Notes under the pieces: model-generated
Databases searched by the model: none
What the model was told of the DNA's origin: nothing
Seen by the model: the letters and a program-made list of their open reading frames with translations, nothing else
Source: a virus
DNA: 64,000 nt
Strand: one strand, 5' to 3'
IMG/VR virus record: IMGVR_UViG_3300020182_000022
Coordinates: 18,262-82,261 of that record
Shown: positions 2,388 through 57,419 of the stretch, piece after piece
Layout: each line of letters starts with the position of its first letter
Position numbering within the stretch: the first letter of the stretch is position 1
Program-made: the position numbers and the translations under genes

Positions 2388-4193
2388 TTAACTCTCTATA
2401 ATTATCTTCTTGTATAGATTGAATGCATCGTGTAAATATGGATATTTGTAGTAGGGTAATTTATAGTTTTGGTTCATTATTACTATGTCATTATCATATA
2501 CAGGGTTCCATATACATAAACTTAACCCAGGTAATGTTAGTGATAGGTCCGTACGTGAAGTAGATATCGACTCAACACCTTGTATGTTTTGTATTAACGA
2601 ACCGATTGTGTTTACTTCAATTAATTGTCCTAGCTCCATCTTAGTGTTCATAAAATACACAGCTATCGTGTCTGCTACTTCCTGTATAATTGCTGAATCT
2701 TCTCTTATGATCCCAGGTGTTTTTTGTATAACTAATTGAGTGTTATCTGATATCTCCGGTGTTACTACTTCTTGTCCTGTGGTGAGTCCTAAATTAACAC
2801 CAACAAATACAGGATCCATTAGAACAATCTCTTGGGATATCATTTTCTTCTTGTTGATGTCATTTAATATTAGCTCTTTCATTGATGGAGATATAAAGTT
2901 AGTCATAACAGATGCAGTTGTTGCTGCTGGCATAGACGGCACGCAGTATATGTATACATTATTGAATGTAGTTGATGTTGAAACTTGCATGTGATTGAAC
3001 ATCACTCTGCTCTCTTTATTGGGATATGAGATACCTACATCCTCGCTGAGATATCTCATATGACCATCGATATAAGTTGTGTTGTCGACAACTTTAGATG
3101 ATGTCAGTAAATTGCCGTAGCCTCTTTCTATATATGACTCATAATCGATTGCTGTTACTAGTCGATCTTGATTGGATAGATTTAATGGTGCTTTACGTTT
3201 TATTTCATCGACTGTCTCGCGTTGTTGTGGTATGGTACTGGGTTGAGTATTCGTAAATGACATTGTCTCGATGTTATCAAATGTTATATATTTGATATTT
3301 TCGGGTTTGATATCAGTCTTAATGGCATTGAATATATTACTACCATAGAGTGTCATCTTGAGCTCATCCAAGAAGTTCGCTCCTACTTGCCCTGCTTCTC
3401 CAGTAGACTCAAGATAATACACCCATACTTCGTCTCCTGAGTTTAACTTAGCGCCAGTGACATCATCACCAAACTTTAATTCATATATTTCATTCTCATT
3501 TAACCTTTTCTCAAAAACTCGATCAGTGGGGGTTGCTAAATACATTGATGTTGTTTCAGTATACTGGTAATATTTTCCGGAATCAAAGTCCTTAACATAC
3601 ACGTGAATGTGAAAGTGATCTAGTTTTGTTTTCTCTTCTATTGTATTTACATACACCGTCTCGAAGTCTTGACCAGTTGATTGTTGACCGGGAAGTTCAA
3701 CCCATTTACCTTGATATAGTAGATGCTTTTCTCCTATAATTGGTATGGGTTCATCACTGGGGGAATTTTTTGTAAATGATATATCAGCGTCGGTTGAGTA
3801 GTATGTATCGTTCGAGCTGATGAATGAGTACCTAGGTATAGTATATGTACCAGGGATAAGGTCTTCAGTAGCGAATGCATCGAAACTAAGATTACTAGTT
3901 TGATACCCGACAGGGTTATAGTTCAACATTTTAACTATACGGTTTACGTTTTCATATATAGTAGACTCGGTGAACATACTCTCAGTTGATGTTCTGTTGA
4001 GATAATATAGTAATGTATGGAAGCTATATGCAATCACATCAATAAACGATGACATGTTACTACCTCTGTATACCTGATCTGTGAAGGTTCCTTGTTCTGT
4101 TAGTCTGTTTATTATGAAATCTCTAAGACTTGTAGCATCGAAAGATGTATATGCTTTATCAGGTAAACTATATTCTGTATATTTATCGGTCAT
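2388..4193 (-). CDS. 6: Baseplate wedge subunit gp6
   Basis: This 601-residue protein matches the T4 gp6 family (660 residues in T4). The N-terminus (SFDATSLRDFIINRL, then YRGSNMSSFIDVIAYSFHTL) and the segment around YNPVGYQTS are typical of gp6 N-terminal domains. The middle contains the Baseplate_J-like region and the C-terminus carries the dimerising part. In T4, gp6 dimers form the inner ring that clips wedges together around the hub. It follows gp25 by one base and precedes the PKD protein by one base, so the three are probably one late operon. The T4 order 25-6 in this tail module supports the call. Confidence 0.9.
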   Translation of the reverse strand: MTDKYTEYSLPDKAYTSFDATSLRDFIINRLTEQGTFTDQVYRGSNMSSFIDVIAYSFHTLLYYLNRTSTESMFTESTIYENVNRIVKMLNYNPVGYQTSNLSFDAFATEDLIPGTYTIPRYSFISSNDTYYSTDADISFTKNSPSDEPIPIIGEKHLLYQGKWVELPGQQSTGQDFETVYVNTIEEKTKLDHFHIHVYVKDFDSGKYYQYTETTSMYLATPTDRVFEKRLNENEIYELKFGDDVTGAKLNSGDEVWVYYLESTGEAGQVGANFLDELKMTLYGSNIFNAIKTDIKPENIKYITFDNIETMSFTNTQPSTIPQQRETVDEIKRKAPLNLSNQDRLVTAIDYESYIERGYGNLLTSSKVVDNTTYIDGHMRYLSEDVGISYPNKESRVMFNHMQVSTSTTFNNVYIYCVPSMPAATTASVMTNFISPSMKELILNDINKKKMISQEIVLMDPVFVGVNLGLTTGQEVVTPEISDNTQLVIQKTPGIIREDSAIIQEVADTIAVYFMNTKMELGQLIEVNTIGSLIQNIQGVESISTSRTDLSLTLPGLSLCIWNPVYDNDIVIMNQNYKLPYYKYPYLHDAFNLYKKIIIES

Positions 4194-19512: not shown

Positions 19513-22500
19513 TTAGGACACTAATTCACTGAAGTCTTGACCGGTTCTAGTAGCATAAAAGTTAACTAGAATGAATTCCGCAGCGCGTGTAGGTTTGATG
19601 TAGATGTCTATGACAAGCTCATTGCGGTCAATAACATCTGGTGAATTGTTTCGTTCGTCGCAAACGAGCAAGTAATCGTACATACCTTGTGTGTTCTTTA
19701 CCTCCTCGAAGATTGGACGAAGAACGTTTAGTACTTGTGTCCGTGTGAATAATGTGTTCGGTTCGAATACGAAGTATTTAACTGTATTCATTGTAGCCTT
19801 TTGTAGGTATAAGAACAACCTTCTAACGTTGATACGATCGAAAGCACTTGGTTTAGCTTGCATGGTCTTTTGACCGAAGATTGCAAATCCTTCATTAGGA
19901 AAGTTAGCAACTGGATTCAATCCAATTTTGTATAACTGATCTCTTTCCTTCTGTTTTGGATAAAACGCAAGGTCTTGAATACCACTCACTAAGCCTCTTG
20001 TGAAACCTGCAGGTGCGATCCATGGATAGAAGTTACTATCTGTATTACCCATTGCGGCGGCAGCGAATCCACTCATCGGTACCCAAACGCCACGGTTAAG
20101 TGCTTTATCGTTTGTGAATCCCCAGTTAGCGTAAGTACAGCAATAACTACTGTTCTTAGTACCACCGGTCATCATGTGACGCAACGGCCAGTAAATGTGT
20201 TGTGAGAAGTTTACTCCGGATTCACGTTGCTGGCTTGTGAGAGTTTTACTATTTCTACCTTGAACAAAAATGTATCTCAATGGATCAGCGATAAAGATAT
20301 TGTCTTTTCTTGCGAATTGACTGAAACTCTTGAATGTATCGAAGATTGTGTCGTATTGTGTCAAGTAATTGATTTCACTTCTGTTATCAATCAGCTTGGT
20401 TGTATACAATCCACTTCCGCTCAATCCGGTGCTGCTAACTACATGATCTCCAATGTTGAAGAACTCTTCATCATCAAAGCTCTCAACTGTACCACCATCT
20501 GTACCGACATAAACTGTACCTAAACCGCTCTCAATTGTGATATCAATCGGGAATAGATCAAAATTGTCTGCTAGTTCGAAGATACGATCCAATTTAGCTG
20601 GGATATTACCAGTTTCTTTAGCTGCAGCAGCTTGCTTGCGATACACACCGTGAGGATACACATTATTACCGTGCTTGATTTGAGCTTTTCTAGAAGCTTG
20701 CAAGTCTTGCCAGGATTTGATGTATAGTCGGTCTTCTTTTTCTTCATTTCCGTTGAGGAACGCTTGAGCTACCTTAAAGTCGTTAACTTCTTGAGTTGTA
20801 TCTAATTTTTGATCTGATGTTAATTCATCGTAGTAACTTACTGATTTAGCTGGAAGTACTCTGATCTTACGGGTCGGATAACCATTCTCGTCTAACCAAT
20901 TTCCGGCATCTTTAGAGATACCTTCATTGAATTTCATGTAAAGGTTGTTACTATTACTAGCTTCACTCTCGATGAAGTAACTAGTAGCTGTACCGCCTGT
21001 GGATTTGAATGCTTCTCTAAAGTAATTAACACTACCAATAACACTATCAGCAACGAGATAATCGAGCTTAGTAGCATCAGGTTCGAGTGTTGATTGACGT
21101 ACTTTAAATACAGCGAGTGTTAACACATCACTGAACTCATCAGTATTGAGGTCGAATTCACTCAAGTTTTCTAGAGCTTCACTCATACTACCATCTAATC
21201 CTACTTGTTGTTTATTTCCGTATTGATCGAAGATAAATCCAGCACTAAGTGAGAAAGTTAAACGGCTTTTAACACCTGTATCAGGTACATTAACATACCC
21301 GCCAGTTGTTCCGCCTAGCTTTTTACTTAGCGATTTCAATTGTCCTACTGAATCAAAGTCTGTAGCAGGGTTCAAGTTAGTATTATCTGAAATACCGATG
21401 TAATAGCCTTCAAATTTCTCATTGAGAACAAATTTCTTGTCATTCACAATCATCATTCCTGCACCACCTTTTGTGAGTAAGTCATTGTAGGTTGTGAATT
21501 TTTGATTTTCTAGTTTACCAGCATTTGCTTGGCTAAGCTTTACTTCACCCTTGATGGTCTTCTGAAAATCATCGTTTGATAATTCGATGTTACTAGGCTC
21601 ACCTAGATAATAACGATCACTAGCACTCAAGTCCCATCCAACACTATTAACAGCGTCTGCAACTATGTCTGCAACATCTGCGATTTCATACGCATTTAAG
21701 GCTGGTATACTCAATGGGTTACCAGCCTCTGTTTCCGACCAGTATAGATTATCCTGTGAATAAGCGCTTACAGAGGGTATAGATGCGATGACGCTATCAA
21801 CTGCGTCTTTAAGAGTTGTCCCGACGTAACCTCCTGGATTAGTATCACCGAACTTCCACGCACTAGCTGGTACAACTTTTGTACTTAATCCAGAAGCAAT
21901 ACCTCCGGTGATGGTATAACTTTGATCACTCGATACCGAGTCATCGGCTTCAACTCCTTCAAGACCACCACCAAAAACTAAATTATCAGAGGTTATTAAA
22001 TCTCCACCTGACACCACTTGCACTTGTTCATCAGGACTAGCGGTTAAATTATGAGCGGCGACTCTTTGTGTGAGTGTTCCAGGCAATGAACCTCCATCAA
22101 GTACAAGAGTACCAGCTGCCGGTACGACTCCATGTCCTCCGATAACCGCGATATGGATTCCAGATACAGGTTGGTTATCAGGACCGTTATGGTCGTTTAC
22201 TATTTCCTGGAGCGTCTTGATACCGTCTGCTTCGACAGATATTGTTTCGACGAATTCATCAGTCACAAGCCACAAATTATAAGCATCATTTGATTTATAT
22301 TCTGCTTGCACACCATCTATCGATTGTAGTACGATACTATTACCGGCGAACCCGGGGGTTACTACTTCAACAATCATGTCTTCATTGATAGGTGTGTTGT
22401 TGTAACCAAAAGTGGTAGCTCTAACAGCTGGTGTGTCTTCTAATCCACCAGTTGCAGAGAGGTATGCTGAGAAGTTTTGGTTGATACGATTTACTATATC

Positions 22501-23325
22501 CTTGCCGGTTAAACGGGCTGCGGTAGCACCTATTCCAAACCCGGAGATAGGATCATAAATTGTTTCATTCTCCGGTTGGCTTGTGTATATATCTATATTC
22601 GTATTATTTAATTCTGTACCGGGAGTAACTGCAACAACACTTATGGTTGAACCAATGTTAACAGAAGCTGGTTTTGCGATAACGAAGTCTCCATCCTCTC
22701 CCCCTTTAAAAGTTATTTTTGTACCGGATTCTAATACAACATCTTGCCCAGATGTGAAGGTCACGTCTAATCCGGTCAGGACTTGTGATACTGACGATAC
22801 ACCATTAGCAGTAACTGAATAATTACTCTCAGCACCAGGGTTGTTAGCTGTAACACTTACACCTTTTTCAGGATTAGAGTAACTGCCGGCTTTCTTTCCG
22901 CTAGTATCGTTAGCACTCTTTGGGTGCCAAGCGATGATTCTTTCGTCTTTCTCGACTGAGTTGATCTCCGGGGCGGCTCCATCAACGATAATAGGACGAG
23001 GAATTACAGGATAAACTTGAACACTATATTTGTCTGCTACCGTCGCTCCGGCTCCTTGACCGTATGGTAATCTAGATACCAGGACGTTTGCAGGGCTTTG
23101 GAATACAGCCTTGACAGAATGATACATGTATCGCTCTGCAGCGTTTTGTGGGAGGCCATAAATTTGTTCGAATTCGCTCAAGCTGGACACCGTGAGTAAC
23201 TCATCGGTTGGTCCTTGATTCGCGAAACCGGGTATAAACACTGTTGTGCCTACGGGTAAATTAGGTCGTAAAGAAAGATCTACTTCCTTTATTTCTACTC
23301 CAGGGGATTGTATTGTTCTTGCCAT
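19513..23325 (-). CDS. 18: Tail sheath protein gp18, nearly twice the T4 length
   Basis: The ends are clearly gp18: SPGVEIKEVDLSLRPNLPV and TTVFIPGFANQGPTDEL at the start, and the C-terminal domain with FIADPLRYIFVQGRN, NTDSNFYPWIAPAGFTRG, then KTMQAKPSAFDRINVRRLF and VIDIYIKPTRAAEFILVNF. The C-terminal domain makes the inter-subunit mesh that contracts. T4 gp18 has 659 residues; this one has 1270. The extra 600 or so residues lie between about residues 100 and 850. They include beta-rich segments (VSVTANNPGAESNYSVTAN; FTSGQDVVLESGTKITFKG) that would project from the outer surface. Late promoter at 23345-23352. Confidence 0.92.
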   Translation of the reverse strand: MARTIQSPGVEIKEVDLSLRPNLPVGTTVFIPGFANQGPTDELLTVSSLSEFEQIYGLPQNAAERYMYHSVKAVFQSPANVLVSRLPYGQGAGATVADKYSVQVYPVIPRPIIVDGAAPEINSVEKDERIIAWHPKSANDTSGKKAGSYSNPEKGVSVTANNPGAESNYSVTANGVSSVSQVLTGLDVTFTSGQDVVLESGTKITFKGGEDGDFVIAKPASVNIGSTISVVAVTPGTELNNTNIDIYTSQPENETIYDPISGFGIGATAARLTGKDIVNRINQNFSAYLSATGGLEDTPAVRATTFGYNNTPINEDMIVEVVTPGFAGNSIVLQSIDGVQAEYKSNDAYNLWLVTDEFVETISVEADGIKTLQEIVNDHNGPDNQPVSGIHIAVIGGHGVVPAAGTLVLDGGSLPGTLTQRVAAHNLTASPDEQVQVVSGGDLITSDNLVFGGGLEGVEADDSVSSDQSYTITGGIASGLSTKVVPASAWKFGDTNPGGYVGTTLKDAVDSVIASIPSVSAYSQDNLYWSETEAGNPLSIPALNAYEIADVADIVADAVNSVGWDLSASDRYYLGEPSNIELSNDDFQKTIKGEVKLSQANAGKLENQKFTTYNDLLTKGGAGMMIVNDKKFVLNEKFEGYYIGISDNTNLNPATDFDSVGQLKSLSKKLGGTTGGYVNVPDTGVKSRLTFSLSAGFIFDQYGNKQQVGLDGSMSEALENLSEFDLNTDEFSDVLTLAVFKVRQSTLEPDATKLDYLVADSVIGSVNYFREAFKSTGGTATSYFIESEASNSNNLYMKFNEGISKDAGNWLDENGYPTRKIRVLPAKSVSYYDELTSDQKLDTTQEVNDFKVAQAFLNGNEEKEDRLYIKSWQDLQASRKAQIKHGNNVYPHGVYRKQAAAAKETGNIPAKLDRIFELADNFDLFPIDITIESGLGTVYVGTDGGTVESFDDEEFFNIGDHVVSSTGLSGSGLYTTKLIDNRSEINYLTQYDTIFDTFKSFSQFARKDNIFIADPLRYIFVQGRNSKTLTSQQRESGVNFSQHIYWPLRHMMTGGTKNSSYCCTYANWGFTNDKALNRGVWVPMSGFAAAAMGNTDSNFYPWIAPAGFTRGLVSGIQDLAFYPKQKERDQLYKIGLNPVANFPNEGFAIFGQKTMQAKPSAFDRINVRRLFLYLQKATMNTVKYFVFEPNTLFTRTQVLNVLRPIFEEVKNTQGMYDYLLVCDERNNSPDVIDRNELVIDIYIKPTRAAEFILVNFYATRTGQDFSELVS

Positions 23326-54580: not shown

Positions 54581-54835
54581 ATGAAATCATTCGAGAAAAT
54601 ATTCTATACCAAATTACTTGAAGACATGGCAGCTGGAGCTGGTGGAGTGTTCGGAGACACAGCAAGTATGGGTCATGGCGGAGACTTTGGTAACACAGAT
54701 TTTTATGCACCAGGAGACGCTAGAATTACTAAAGGTGGCAAGAAGAAACAAAAGAAGAAAAAGAAAAAAAAGCATGACGGTAGTATTGAGCCTCTTGTTC
54801 CTACTCAGAAAAGGTTTCTTGGATCTTCAATGTGA
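54581..54835 (+). CDS. Small basic late protein with capsid-targeting-like N-terminus
   Basis: The 84-residue product starts MKSFEKIFYTKLLEDMAAGA, ending a short amphipathic peptide in L-L-E. A Gly-rich middle (GGVFGDTASMGHGGDFGN, then FYAPGDARI) leads to a long Lys run and a short tail. This composition suits an internal, DNA-neutralising head protein. A weak late-like box TATAAGTC lies at 54569-54576. Similar small proteins with APGDARxPK are, to my memory, known in T4-like cyanophages, without function. Confidence 0.65.
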   Translation: MKSFEKIFYTKLLEDMAAGAGGVFGDTASMGHGGDFGNTDFYAPGDARITKGGKKKQKKKKKKKHDGSIEPLVPTQKRFLGSSM

Positions 54836-54839
54836 CTAA

Positions 54840-54847
54840 CTTAAATA
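54840..54847 (+). promoter_or_regulatory. T4-type late promoter, plus strand
   Basis: CTTAAATA, with two deviations from the consensus box, predicts a start at 54853, one base before the ATG at 54854. Confidence 0.62.
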
Positions 54848-54853
54848 ATTCTA

Positions 54854-56191
54854 ATGAAACCGTTCAAGCAATACTATACTGAACAACAAACGTTACTAGA
54901 GAACAGAAGAACGTTCTTGAGAACCTTGTTTGGAGGTGCGGCAGCCATGGCAGTTAGCAATCCGGTCCGGGCTGCGAATGCTGTTGCGAATGCAGCTAGT
55001 GCTCCATGGATCAAAATGAGCTTAGAGCAGGATTTCTCCATGTATGATTACGCTAAAGTTTCAGCAGATGAGATCGCTAATTTGATCGCCATGAAAGGAA
55101 AATACACACCAGGAGTGAGTGCTGATGGTGGTATCACTGTCAATTACAATGACAGTGCAGTGGACATGGTCGAGGTGTATGTCAAGCCTGGCACGCCCAT
55201 GTACAAACAAGTCGCGGCAAGAATATCTGATGATCCAGATGTAGACGCACCAGGTGGGTTTGATTTTGAAAAGCAGGTGTTTAACACGATTGGAGATGAT
55301 GATGGTTCAGGTGTGAGTTGGCTTGAGGATCAGCTTGAATCGATGGCATCACAGGATTATGAAGAATTTAAAAAATTACCTCAAGACATGAAAGATGAAC
55401 GTCGAGATGTTGACGGAATAGATGATTCTGGTTACCAACCTGAGGCTCAAATGAATGCATCTAGTAGGGTGAAAGAGTTTATCGATCAGGCTGAAGAGAT
55501 CGGAGCCGAATTACCAGATTGGATGCGTGATGTGGTGGGTAGAGGATACATGAAAGGTCATGTGTTAGCTAATGCGAGTGGAAATGAAGAGGTATCCACT
55601 GACACATTGGTGGAGTTACAGGATTTGTACCCAGGTGAACACATTGATTACCCTGATGAGATGGATATTGACAGATGGTTGGATGGTACTGCTGACAATC
55701 CGATGGACTCTATGGGTTACGATCGAGAAGAGTATAGTCGGGACATGGATCAAGTCGCCGGCGAACTGGAATATAAGGATCAAGATGATGATATTCAAAG
55801 CAGAGATGATTCAGAAATGACCACCGTGACCGTTCCAGGTTACGATAGTTCTGCAGATAATTGGGCCGAGGCTGGATTCAATTTCCTCATGGGGGCTTCA
55901 CAAACTATGCAACAAGTCCCAGTGAAACACGTGATGAATGTTCCTGGTTTTTATGACGCGATCAAAAAAGGACGAGAGATGAATGGAGATTCTGAAGAAA
56001 CGGACATAGACGAACCGTTGACTATCGCGCATGATGGTAGTGACACGATCGAGATAATCGGTGGTTTCGCACAACTAGCAGCTGCAGATGATGAGAAAAT
56101 GCCCCTCCGTAGAGTGCGGATGGTGCATGTTGATGAGTTGCAAGCAGAACCAGAAAGCACCTCAAAATATTTAGACAATGAGAACATTTAG
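54854..56191 (+). CDS. Late protein with capsid-targeting-like leader followed by a Tat-like signal
   Basis: The 445-residue protein opens MKPFKQYYTEQQTLLE, a leader ending in L-L-E. Then NRRTFLRTLFGGAAAMAV and PVRAANA fit a twin-arginine (RRxFL) signal with hydrophobic core and AxA-type end at residues 18-43. The rest is acidic, with a compact C-terminal part. No enzyme motif is recognised. If the leader targets it to the head and is removed, the new N-terminus would expose the Tat motif. The last codons overlap the next ATG by 14 bases in an NENI-stop arrangement. Confidence 0.6.
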   Translation: MKPFKQYYTEQQTLLENRRTFLRTLFGGAAAMAVSNPVRAANAVANAASAPWIKMSLEQDFSMYDYAKVSADEIANLIAMKGKYTPGVSADGGITVNYNDSAVDMVEVYVKPGTPMYKQVAARISDDPDVDAPGGFDFEKQVFNTIGDDDGSGVSWLEDQLESMASQDYEEFKKLPQDMKDERRDVDGIDDSGYQPEAQMNASSRVKEFIDQAEEIGAELPDWMRDVVGRGYMKGHVLANASGNEEVSTDTLVELQDLYPGEHIDYPDEMDIDRWLDGTADNPMDSMGYDREEYSRDMDQVAGELEYKDQDDDIQSRDDSEMTTVTVPGYDSSADNWAEAGFNFLMGASQTMQQVPVKHVMNVPGFYDAIKKGREMNGDSEETDIDEPLTIAHDGSDTIEIIGGFAQLAAADDEKMPLRRVRMVHVDELQAEPESTSKYLDNENI

Positions 56192-56201
56192 ACAATTTTA
56201 C
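56178..56201 (+). repeat. Leader-coding repeat, copy 1
   Basis: The 24-base sequence codes for MRTFRQFY and also contains the stop of the upstream gene. A near-identical copy starts at 56599. Confidence 0.85.
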
Positions 56202-57419
56202 GAAGATAATTCAATGGAGTATCACTACACCATTATAGGTATAGGTGGATATCATAGTGAGAATATAATAGTGTTAAAATCGTTTGGACATGTACCAGAT
56301 CAAAAAGTAGAGGGATTGGTCAAGTACTCAACACAATTAGCAAATGAGCAATTCGGTGAAGATGAAGATTATCAAGGTGAGTATGAAGATTATGTTGAAT
56401 TTGGTACAGCCGATGCGATGAGCAATTTTTATCATGATGTGGGTATAGATGAAGCAGTTGGAGAGTATCACATAAACGAGCAATACAAGCTTGTCAAGCA
56501 CATCCCACCTCACCGGTCCATAACGGCTGGTGATGCCAATTTTGAAGGTGATGAGATGTTCTTTATTCGTACCCTAGATGGTTGGGATGGTAGTGTAAAT
56601 GAGAAAACATTTAGACAATTTTACACTGAGAATCTTAACAGATTTGAAAACATGGACGATTTAATCTTTGGAGTGATGGACCTGATTTACAGTGCCGGGG
56701 ATTATGAAGCCAATTTACGTCCTGTGAGTGTGGTTGATTATGGTATCAAGGAGACACAGCAAATGATTGACGATTACTTGACTGGTGCGGGATTGAAAGA
56801 TACACAACCTGAATGGTATCAGCAACGATTTGACATATACAAACAACTGGATGATGACGTGGTGCAGTCGAGTAAGGACCCGGACAATCTACCAGAAGAA
56901 CCGGATGGTGAATGGAAAACAGAAGAAGAATACAAAGAAGAGATGGAAGACCATCATGAACTATATGCTCGTTTCCGCGCCATGGTGCTAGCAGCCATGC
57001 ACAACAAAAGCTGGAAAGAGTATACTAATGAGTATAGTGATGATCACATACTCAACTCGACCAGACGTCAGAACGATGTATGGAAGGCGTCAGAGCGTAT
57101 GAGGGACGGATTTGGTATAAACGAAGGTCTATGGGCCAACATCAACGCCAAGAAAAAACGCGGAGGCAAGAGTGCCAAGAAAGGCAGCAAAGCATACAAA
57201 GCTGCTAAGAAGGCTGGTGACAAACTAGAAGTCACAAAAGAAAACTTCAAAGACGGCAAGAAAAAAGGCAAGAGTCGTCCTGGTAGAGTCAAAAAAGCCG
57301 GCACAAGCTGCAACGGATCAGTGACAGAGCTTCGGAAACGCGCCAAGAACAGCAGTGGTGAGAAGGCCAAAATGTCACACTGGTGTGCGAATATGAAGAG
57401 TGGTAAGAAAAAGAATTGA
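56178..57419 (+). CDS. Apparent fusion of two capsid-targeted proteins with basic tail
   Basis: The 413-residue frame begins MRTFRQFYED and carries a second copy, KTFRQFYTEN, at residues 143-152. The DNA around both copies is nearly identical, but the second has AAAA instead of AA. Without those two bases, the first part would stop as NENI and a new gene would start with ATGAGAACATTT, exactly as at the junction with the previous gene. The C-terminal 85 residues are very basic (KKRGGKSAKKGSKAYKAA, then ending MKSGKKKN), of the kind seen in DNA-associated phage proteins. It may be a true fusion or a homopolymer artefact. Confidence 0.6.
   Translation: MRTFRQFYEDNSMEYHYTIIGIGGYHSENIIVLKSFGHVPDQKVEGLVKYSTQLANEQFGEDEDYQGEYEDYVEFGTADAMSNFYHDVGIDEAVGEYHINEQYKLVKHIPPHRSITAGDANFEGDEMFFIRTLDGWDGSVNEKTFRQFYTENLNRFENMDDLIFGVMDLIYSAGDYEANLRPVSVVDYGIKETQQMIDDYLTGAGLKDTQPEWYQQRFDIYKQLDDDVVQSSKDPDNLPEEPDGEWKTEEEYKEEMEDHHELYARFRAMVLAAMHNKSWKEYTNEYSDDHILNSTRRQNDVWKASERMRDGFGINEGLWANINAKKKRGGKSAKKGSKAYKAAKKAGDKLEVTKENFKDGKKKGKSRPGRVKKAGTSCNGSVTELRKRAKNSSGEKAKMSHWCANMKSGKKKN
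56599..56624 (+). repeat. Leader-coding repeat, copy 2, with two extra A
   Basis: Same sequence as copy 1 except for a two-base expansion of AA to AAAA (56604-56607). The ATG at 56599 is out of frame with the downstream coding region because of it. Confidence 0.85.

Follow-up and report, generated by a model that had tools for sequence, protein, structure and literature searches.

Introduction

The closest described counterparts of the protein analysed here are the internal proteins of phage T4. In T4 IPIII the first 10 residues suffice for packing, with residues 4 and 7 mattering for targeting and residues 8 and 10 for processing, and gp21 cleaves after the motif L/I-X-E (PMC9026906). The T4 internal proteins are described there as ejected into the cytoplasm, IPI-III being small and basic (PMC9026906), and a constant leader joined to an exchangeable body is a known pattern of T-even internal proteins (PMC3012670). 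The second relevant system is the bacterial twin-arginine (Tat) signal, with the published consensus SRRxFLK (PMC13323110). An earlier note on this DNA knew of no described phage protein that combines the two, and our search of the open-licence literature agrees, as it returned no description of a capsid-targeted protein with a Tat signal.

Here, we analyse such a combination in a stretch of 64,000 nucleotides (the window) from an IMG/VR record of 82 kb. An ORF of 445 aa at 54854..56191 on the + strand (ORF call and translation), encoding the dual-address protein P0001, has an N-terminus that reads MKPFKQYYTEQQTLLENRRTFLRTLFGGAAAMAVSNPVRAANAVANAASAPW... and starts with MKPFKQYYTEQQTLLE-NRRTFLRTLFGGAAAMAVSNPVRAANA, a T4-type capsid-targeting leader and then a twin-arginine signal. 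Both segments are present in the sequence, and the leader is one of several similar ones in the genome. We tentatively propose, as a possible rather than a probable reading, that P0001 is a T4-type internal protein that is packaged into the head, injected and then exported by the host Tat system.

Results

The window derives from a T4-type myovirus fragment, an assignment based on a tail sheath that matches many T4-like phages; the terminase of the record matches phrog_2, the PHROG that T4 gene 17 matches in a control. The tail sheath protein (19513-23325) is 1270 aa long, about twice T4 gp18, and its phage-sheath matches are confined to the last part, about residues 983-1268. Neither the prohead protease PF03420 (gp21; T4 control 4e-113) nor the gp23 family matches anything in the 82 kb record, itself a fragment, and peptidase S78 (PF04586), sought as an alternative prohead protease, was found in 0 of 7 records. 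The P0001 locus adjoins a helicase gene that we take to be UvsW-like, and relatives of this helicase led to two homologous loci, L003 and L026.

The first 16 residues of P0001, MKPFKQYYTEQQTLLE (54854..54901, +), form a capsid-targeting-like leader as judged by the T4 rules (PMC9026906) and by sibling leaders in the window. Its start, MKPFKQYYTE, has aromatic residues at both T4 targeting positions (F4 and Y7) and keeps E10 (compare MKTYQEFIAE in T4 IPII), and L14-L15-E16 (54893..54901, +) is a candidate prohead-protease site of the L/I-X-E type (PMC9026906). P0001 is in this respect like T4 IPI, IPII, IPIII and Alt, with a leader of roughly 10 residues, key residues 4 and 7 and an L/I-x-E motif. 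The ORF, its coordinates and the segment are as the earlier note described them when it read these residues as a head-targeting-like leader ending in LLE. Leaders of the pattern M(M)[KRNL]xF begin 7 of the 68 non-overlapping ORFs of the window, all seven on the + strand (19 ORFs +, 49 -; Fisher 5e-5), and [LI]xE occurs within residues 6-24 in 6/7 leader ORFs versus 11/61 others (p 7e-4). One shared leader stands on several otherwise different proteins of the window genome, a feature of T4-type internal proteins. The upstream neighbour (54581..54835, +; ORF list and leader pattern) carries a leader of the same kind (MKSFEKIFYTKLLE). The Pfam TAT_signal model had no match in any of the six sibling-leader proteins tested.

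Residues 17-43 of P0001, NRRTFLRTLFGGAAAMAVSNPVRAANA (54902..54982, +), match the plan of a Tat signal: N-RRTFLR with the twin arginine codons R18-R19 at 54905..54910 (+), an uncharged, Ala/Gly-rich core from T24 to V38 (54923..54967, +), R39 as the basic c-region residue, and A41-N42-A43 (54974..54982, +), by its sequence a candidate signal-peptidase motif AxA. The best 12-residue Kyte-Doolittle mean of the core is 1.47, and five E. coli controls range from 1.35 to 1.97. A strict rule, which demands an RRxFL-like motif, an uncharged core (12 residues needed) and AxA, accepts 7 of 10 E. coli Tat controls and also accepts full-length P0001 with its leader included. Shuffles of P0001 residues 1-60 pass this rule in 22 of 200,000 cases, and among 1558 distinct viral ORF N-termini the three that pass are P0001 and its two homologues. 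Pfam TAT_signal scores P0001 below its cut-off of 22.7 bits (10.3 for the whole protein, 13.3 for residues 1-60, 14.2 leader-less); the E. coli controls pass this cut-off in 2 of 10 cases, and 4 of 10 score below 13.3 or give nothing. The best GTDB match to residues 12-63 among those listed is the N-terminal signal of a sulfatase-like protein from a Phycisphaerae MAG (L073), MTGRRDFLKQLGLGAAAMAVSHPVLARGA. P0001 is like bacterial Tat substrates, with L073 the closest among the matches listed, in its RRxFL[KR] motif, weakly hydrophobic Ala/Gly core, basic c-region residue and AxA; unlike them, it has a capsid-targeting-type leader in front of the signal and an unrelated body, and is encoded by a tailed-phage gene. 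The second segment of P0001 is, by prediction, a good Tat signal. The earlier note had called residues 17-43 a twin-arginine-type signal, and the strict rule, the shuffles and the recurrence of the pair on unrelated cargoes (below) uphold that description.

The search for close relatives of P0001 found two, L003 and L026. Up to W52 they are identical to P0001 at 51/52 and 50/52 residues, and after residue 52 at about 40%. At the DNA level near-identity ends at codon 53 (55010..55012, +), the recombination joint, and returns only near 57060; inside the diverged stretch lie two islands, one of 34 bases that is the next gene's leader (56177-56210) and one of 46 bases at the internal copy of that leader. 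Because near-identity breaks at codon 53, the body was exchanged and the 52-residue address kept. The address DNA differs from that of L003 and L026 at 3 and 4 of 156 bases, so that it is no more conserved than the flank (94.6% and 98.5%). Since the DNA of the whole flank is near-identical, conservation of the RR pair in these two loci is no evidence for function, and we dropped their conservation as a sign of selection on the leader, the upstream DNA being equally identical.

The variable acidic body (residues 53-445; 55010..56188, +) is about 40% identical to the L003 allele, and residues 44-445 have a pI of 4.05 and 0 Cys. In its C-terminal region (55991..56188, +) the L003 and L026 alleles match ParB-like PHROGs and carry the motif GQHRL; the C-terminal 70 residues of the L003 allele (L003 5941-6150) match phrog_17560 (8e-6), phrog_723 (4e-4) and phrog_8071 (4e-3). 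The same region of the window allele, which reads GGFAQL, has no ParB-like PHROG match, no Pfam match and no GxHR residues. With the GQHRL motif degenerate in the window allele, activity may not be the same in the two circulating alleles. AlphaFold models are poor (mean pLDDT 36.9 for P0001 and 39.9 for P0002), and comparison of P0002 and its C-terminal 70 residues with solved structures gave weak, short matches (best E 0.0056 and 0.48). INPHARED holds no whole-protein homologue of P0001, and no alignment of its body was found in GTDB genomes. L001, from an unrelated phage, was rejected as a homologue because it resembles P0001 by chance in one acidic motif, and Erwinia phage matches to residues 1-60 (E = 7) were taken as chance.

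We scanned IMG/VR three times with patterns that place RRxFL behind a capsid-type leader, taking the out-of-frame matches of the same scans as the null. The first returned 30 stretches, in which the real matches were the two known homologues and the others were out of frame or in short ORFs. The second returned 99 stretches and the third 19, with RRxFL in frame in 6 and 7 of them, respectively; L182 and L187 are identical in sequence. From the second scan we rejected L135 and L146, with in-frame RRxFL but ORFs of just 23 and 32 codons. A strict Tat core follows the motif in 4/26 in-frame versus 0/54 out-of-frame matches of the second scan, and in 5/9 versus 0/7 of the third (L182 is not among the five). 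As independent events we count three families, not nine matches.

Family 2, with proteins of 357-387 aa, comprises L150 (MKTFKQYVNEAQEQLN-RRGFLKGLASFAASAAV), L152 (MKTFKQYIEILEALDQPS-RRGFLKGLASFAAAAAV) and L173 (MKTLKEYINEST-RRGFLKSLASFAASAAV), which all have RRGFLK and retain the leader start MKT.K.Y. Family 3 is L182 and its duplicate L187 (MKTLREYIDQLDEIS-RRDFLRGAGATAGLAATDAISAP), a 175 aa protein with RRDFLR on a contig with a baseplate-hub gene. BLASTP finds no similarity between the bodies of P0001 and L152, and L182 is set apart from the other families by its length and by having no PHROG match and no INPHARED match. No INPHARED isolate was found to carry any of the three families. The L182 protein passes Pfam TAT_signal at full length (26.9 bits against 22.7; 29.1 for the first 60 residues) and fails the strict core rule, with 11 uncharged residues where 12 are needed. 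L152 passes with its first 60 residues (25.2) and scores 21.3 in full, and the first 60 residues of L150 and L173 score 21.8 and 17.2. By sequence, the leader and Tat pair is present on at least two further unrelated cargoes in other phage contigs. Because the same pair stands on two further unrelated cargo families, the bipartite address is best described as a recurrent design and not a one-off. It also suggests that viruses of this kind may be injecting proteins destined for the outer compartment of the host.

T4-type terminase was found in two of the three family 2 contigs (L150/L172 and L173; the 47 kb contig is the exception). No gp21 or gp23 match was obtained in the 130 and 143 kb family 2 contigs although the T4 control matched; both G011 (the L173 record, 142,901 bases) and G010 have a T4-type terminase and no match to gp21, gp23 or peptidase S78.

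Is the Tat segment under selection? In family 2 the block from RR to GVA shows synonymous/nonsynonymous codon differences of 10/1, 4/1 and 11/2 in the three pairs, whereas the bodies show 80/125, 27/69 and 66/139 (p 8e-4, 0.03 and 3e-4, for pairs that are not independent of one another). In the linker that joins the leader to RR, the differences sum to 1 synonymous versus 12 nonsynonymous, plus gaps. Judged by these codon differences, the RR-to-core block in family 2 is under purifying selection, and a conserved Tat block beside a freely varying linker is the pattern expected of a bipartite signal. The earlier note had named non-conservation of the RR pair in homologues as a refuting outcome, and this outcome did not arise: in family 2 the pair is retained in this way, and L003 and L026, being near-identical in DNA, are uninformative.

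Discussion

In the reading that we propose, residues 1-16 would direct newly made P0001 into the prohead core, the prohead protease would probably cut after L-L-E16, and the protein would enter the next host together with the DNA. There the Tat signal N-RRTFLR... would carry folded P0001 across the inner membrane, and the acidic, fast-exchanged body could act in the periplasm, for instance in envelope takeover or competing-phage exclusion. With slightly less confidence, we consider it possible that T4-type phages possess a general 'pack, inject, then export' route, in which the protease-removed leader leaves an N-terminal Tat signal and unrelated virion-delivered proteins reach the periplasm at the start of infection.

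Does the leader have to be removed before the Tat signal can act? N-regions of about 17 residues occur in natural Tat signals, and in E. coli HyaA the arginine pair likewise lies at positions 18-19. With RR at 18-19, a normal n-region length, the uncleaved P0001 precursor could be exported directly. Unmasking of the Tat signal by leader removal, as the earlier note had it, is thus possible but not required. The distance from the E of the cleavage motif to RR is 1 residue in the window, 2 in L173 and L182, and 6 in L152, so that cleavage would leave a Tat signal with a short n-region; for three of the five leader types, those of the window, L173 and L182, RR would then be preceded by 1-2 residues. 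L150 has V-N-E in place of L/I-x-E.

The main rival is late Tat export of newly made protein. The precursor, made late and left uncleaved, would be exported in the same infected cell with no injection, where it could, for instance, keep other phages out or act on the envelope as infection ends, and the leader would be a recombination relic or divert a fraction into heads. We regard this as unlikely, though a serious contender: the n-region length and the acceptance of full-length P0001 by the strict rule speak for it, the leader DNA lies inside the conserved block used as a recombination joint, and the P0001 gene has a late-promoter-like core, TAAATA (54842..54847, +), 12 nt 5' of the ATG and with 6/8 bases of the T4 late-promoter consensus TATAAATA. 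A relic would not, however, explain why the order of leader and Tat signal is found in three cargo families, mostly with L/I-x-E just before RR, nor why family 2 keeps the leader start MKT.K.Y while the linker drifts.

It is improbable that P0001 is packaged into the head with RR and the hydrophobic segment anchoring it in the membrane or forming part of a DNA-ejection conduit instead of marking a Tat substrate. Other phages have ejection proteins that build trans-periplasmic conduits (PMC8402733), and the hydrophobic segment is conserved in family 2; yet the full Tat consensus of RRxFL[KR], weak core, basic c-region residue and AxA is more specific than an anchor needs, L182 passes Pfam TAT_signal, and the bodies differ between the cargo families. 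Tat n-regions vary freely, so that P0001 might be no head protein at all and the leader the mere n-region of an ordinary phage-borne Tat substrate. This we consider a little less probable again, as the leader type also occurs on proteins of the window genome that have no Tat segment and on a tRNA-nucleotidyltransferase-like protein of a relative. Finally, a purely fortuitous Tat resemblance was rejected on the recurrence and the out-of-frame control, and a chance or decaying RR and Ala-rich stretch with no transport role, which would fit the sub-threshold Pfam score of P0001 and the uninformative L003/L026 conservation, is very improbable given the 22 passes in 200,000 shuffles, the recurrence, the out-of-frame counts of 0/54 and 0/7 and the purifying selection in family 2.

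Returning to the pack-and-export reading of P0001, several points count against it: the Pfam TAT_signal score below cut-off, L003/L026 conservation that is no more than DNA-level identity of the whole flank, a body pI of about 4.1 versus the basic T4 IPI-III, the lack of L/I-x-E in L150, the one residue by which L182 falls short of the strict core rule, the absence of gp21 and gp23 matches in the 82 kb record and in the 130 and 143 kb family 2 contigs, and an intact leader that does not block the Tat signal in principle. As in T4 internal proteins, one leader stands on diverse bodies and bodies are exchanged between close relatives; unlike in T-even internal proteins, the constant part of P0001 includes the Tat segment. 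Different from T4 IPI-III (PMC9026906) are the Tat signal directly behind the leader and the long, acidic body. The resemblance to ParB-like phage proteins holds for the C-terminus of the L003 allele, the window allele being without a match. If the proposal is true, phages use the host's export of folded proteins to put virion proteins into the periplasm within minutes of infection, and leader, L/I-x-E and RRxFL[KR] together would give a simple rule by which to recognise such proteins in the unnamed genes of phages.

The TAAATA core of P0001 has many counterparts. Several sibling genes on the + strand have one 11-17 nt before the ATG, and cores at 54842, 26627, 29661, 58541 and other positions lie mostly 9-17 nt 5' of many ATGs; 20 of the 64 TAAATA copies fall within 60 nt before an ORF start. 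If cores this close to the ATGs are promoters, the transcripts would be nearly leaderless.

The downstream neighbour (56178..57419, +) has the leader MRTFRQFYEDN, a second, internal copy EKTFRQFYTEN and a basic, Lys-rich C-terminal part, and is a chimera in which the internal leader copy lies at about residue 140, ahead of the Lys-rich part. The L003 version of this gene is without the first cargo and has a different insert at a later point. The leader DNA has the look of a handle by which recombination swaps cargoes. In L005, from a relative, a tRNA nucleotidyltransferase/poly(A) polymerase-like protein with an HD domain (2401-3873) stands behind the leader MKPFKQFYEE and is possibly a packaged enzyme.
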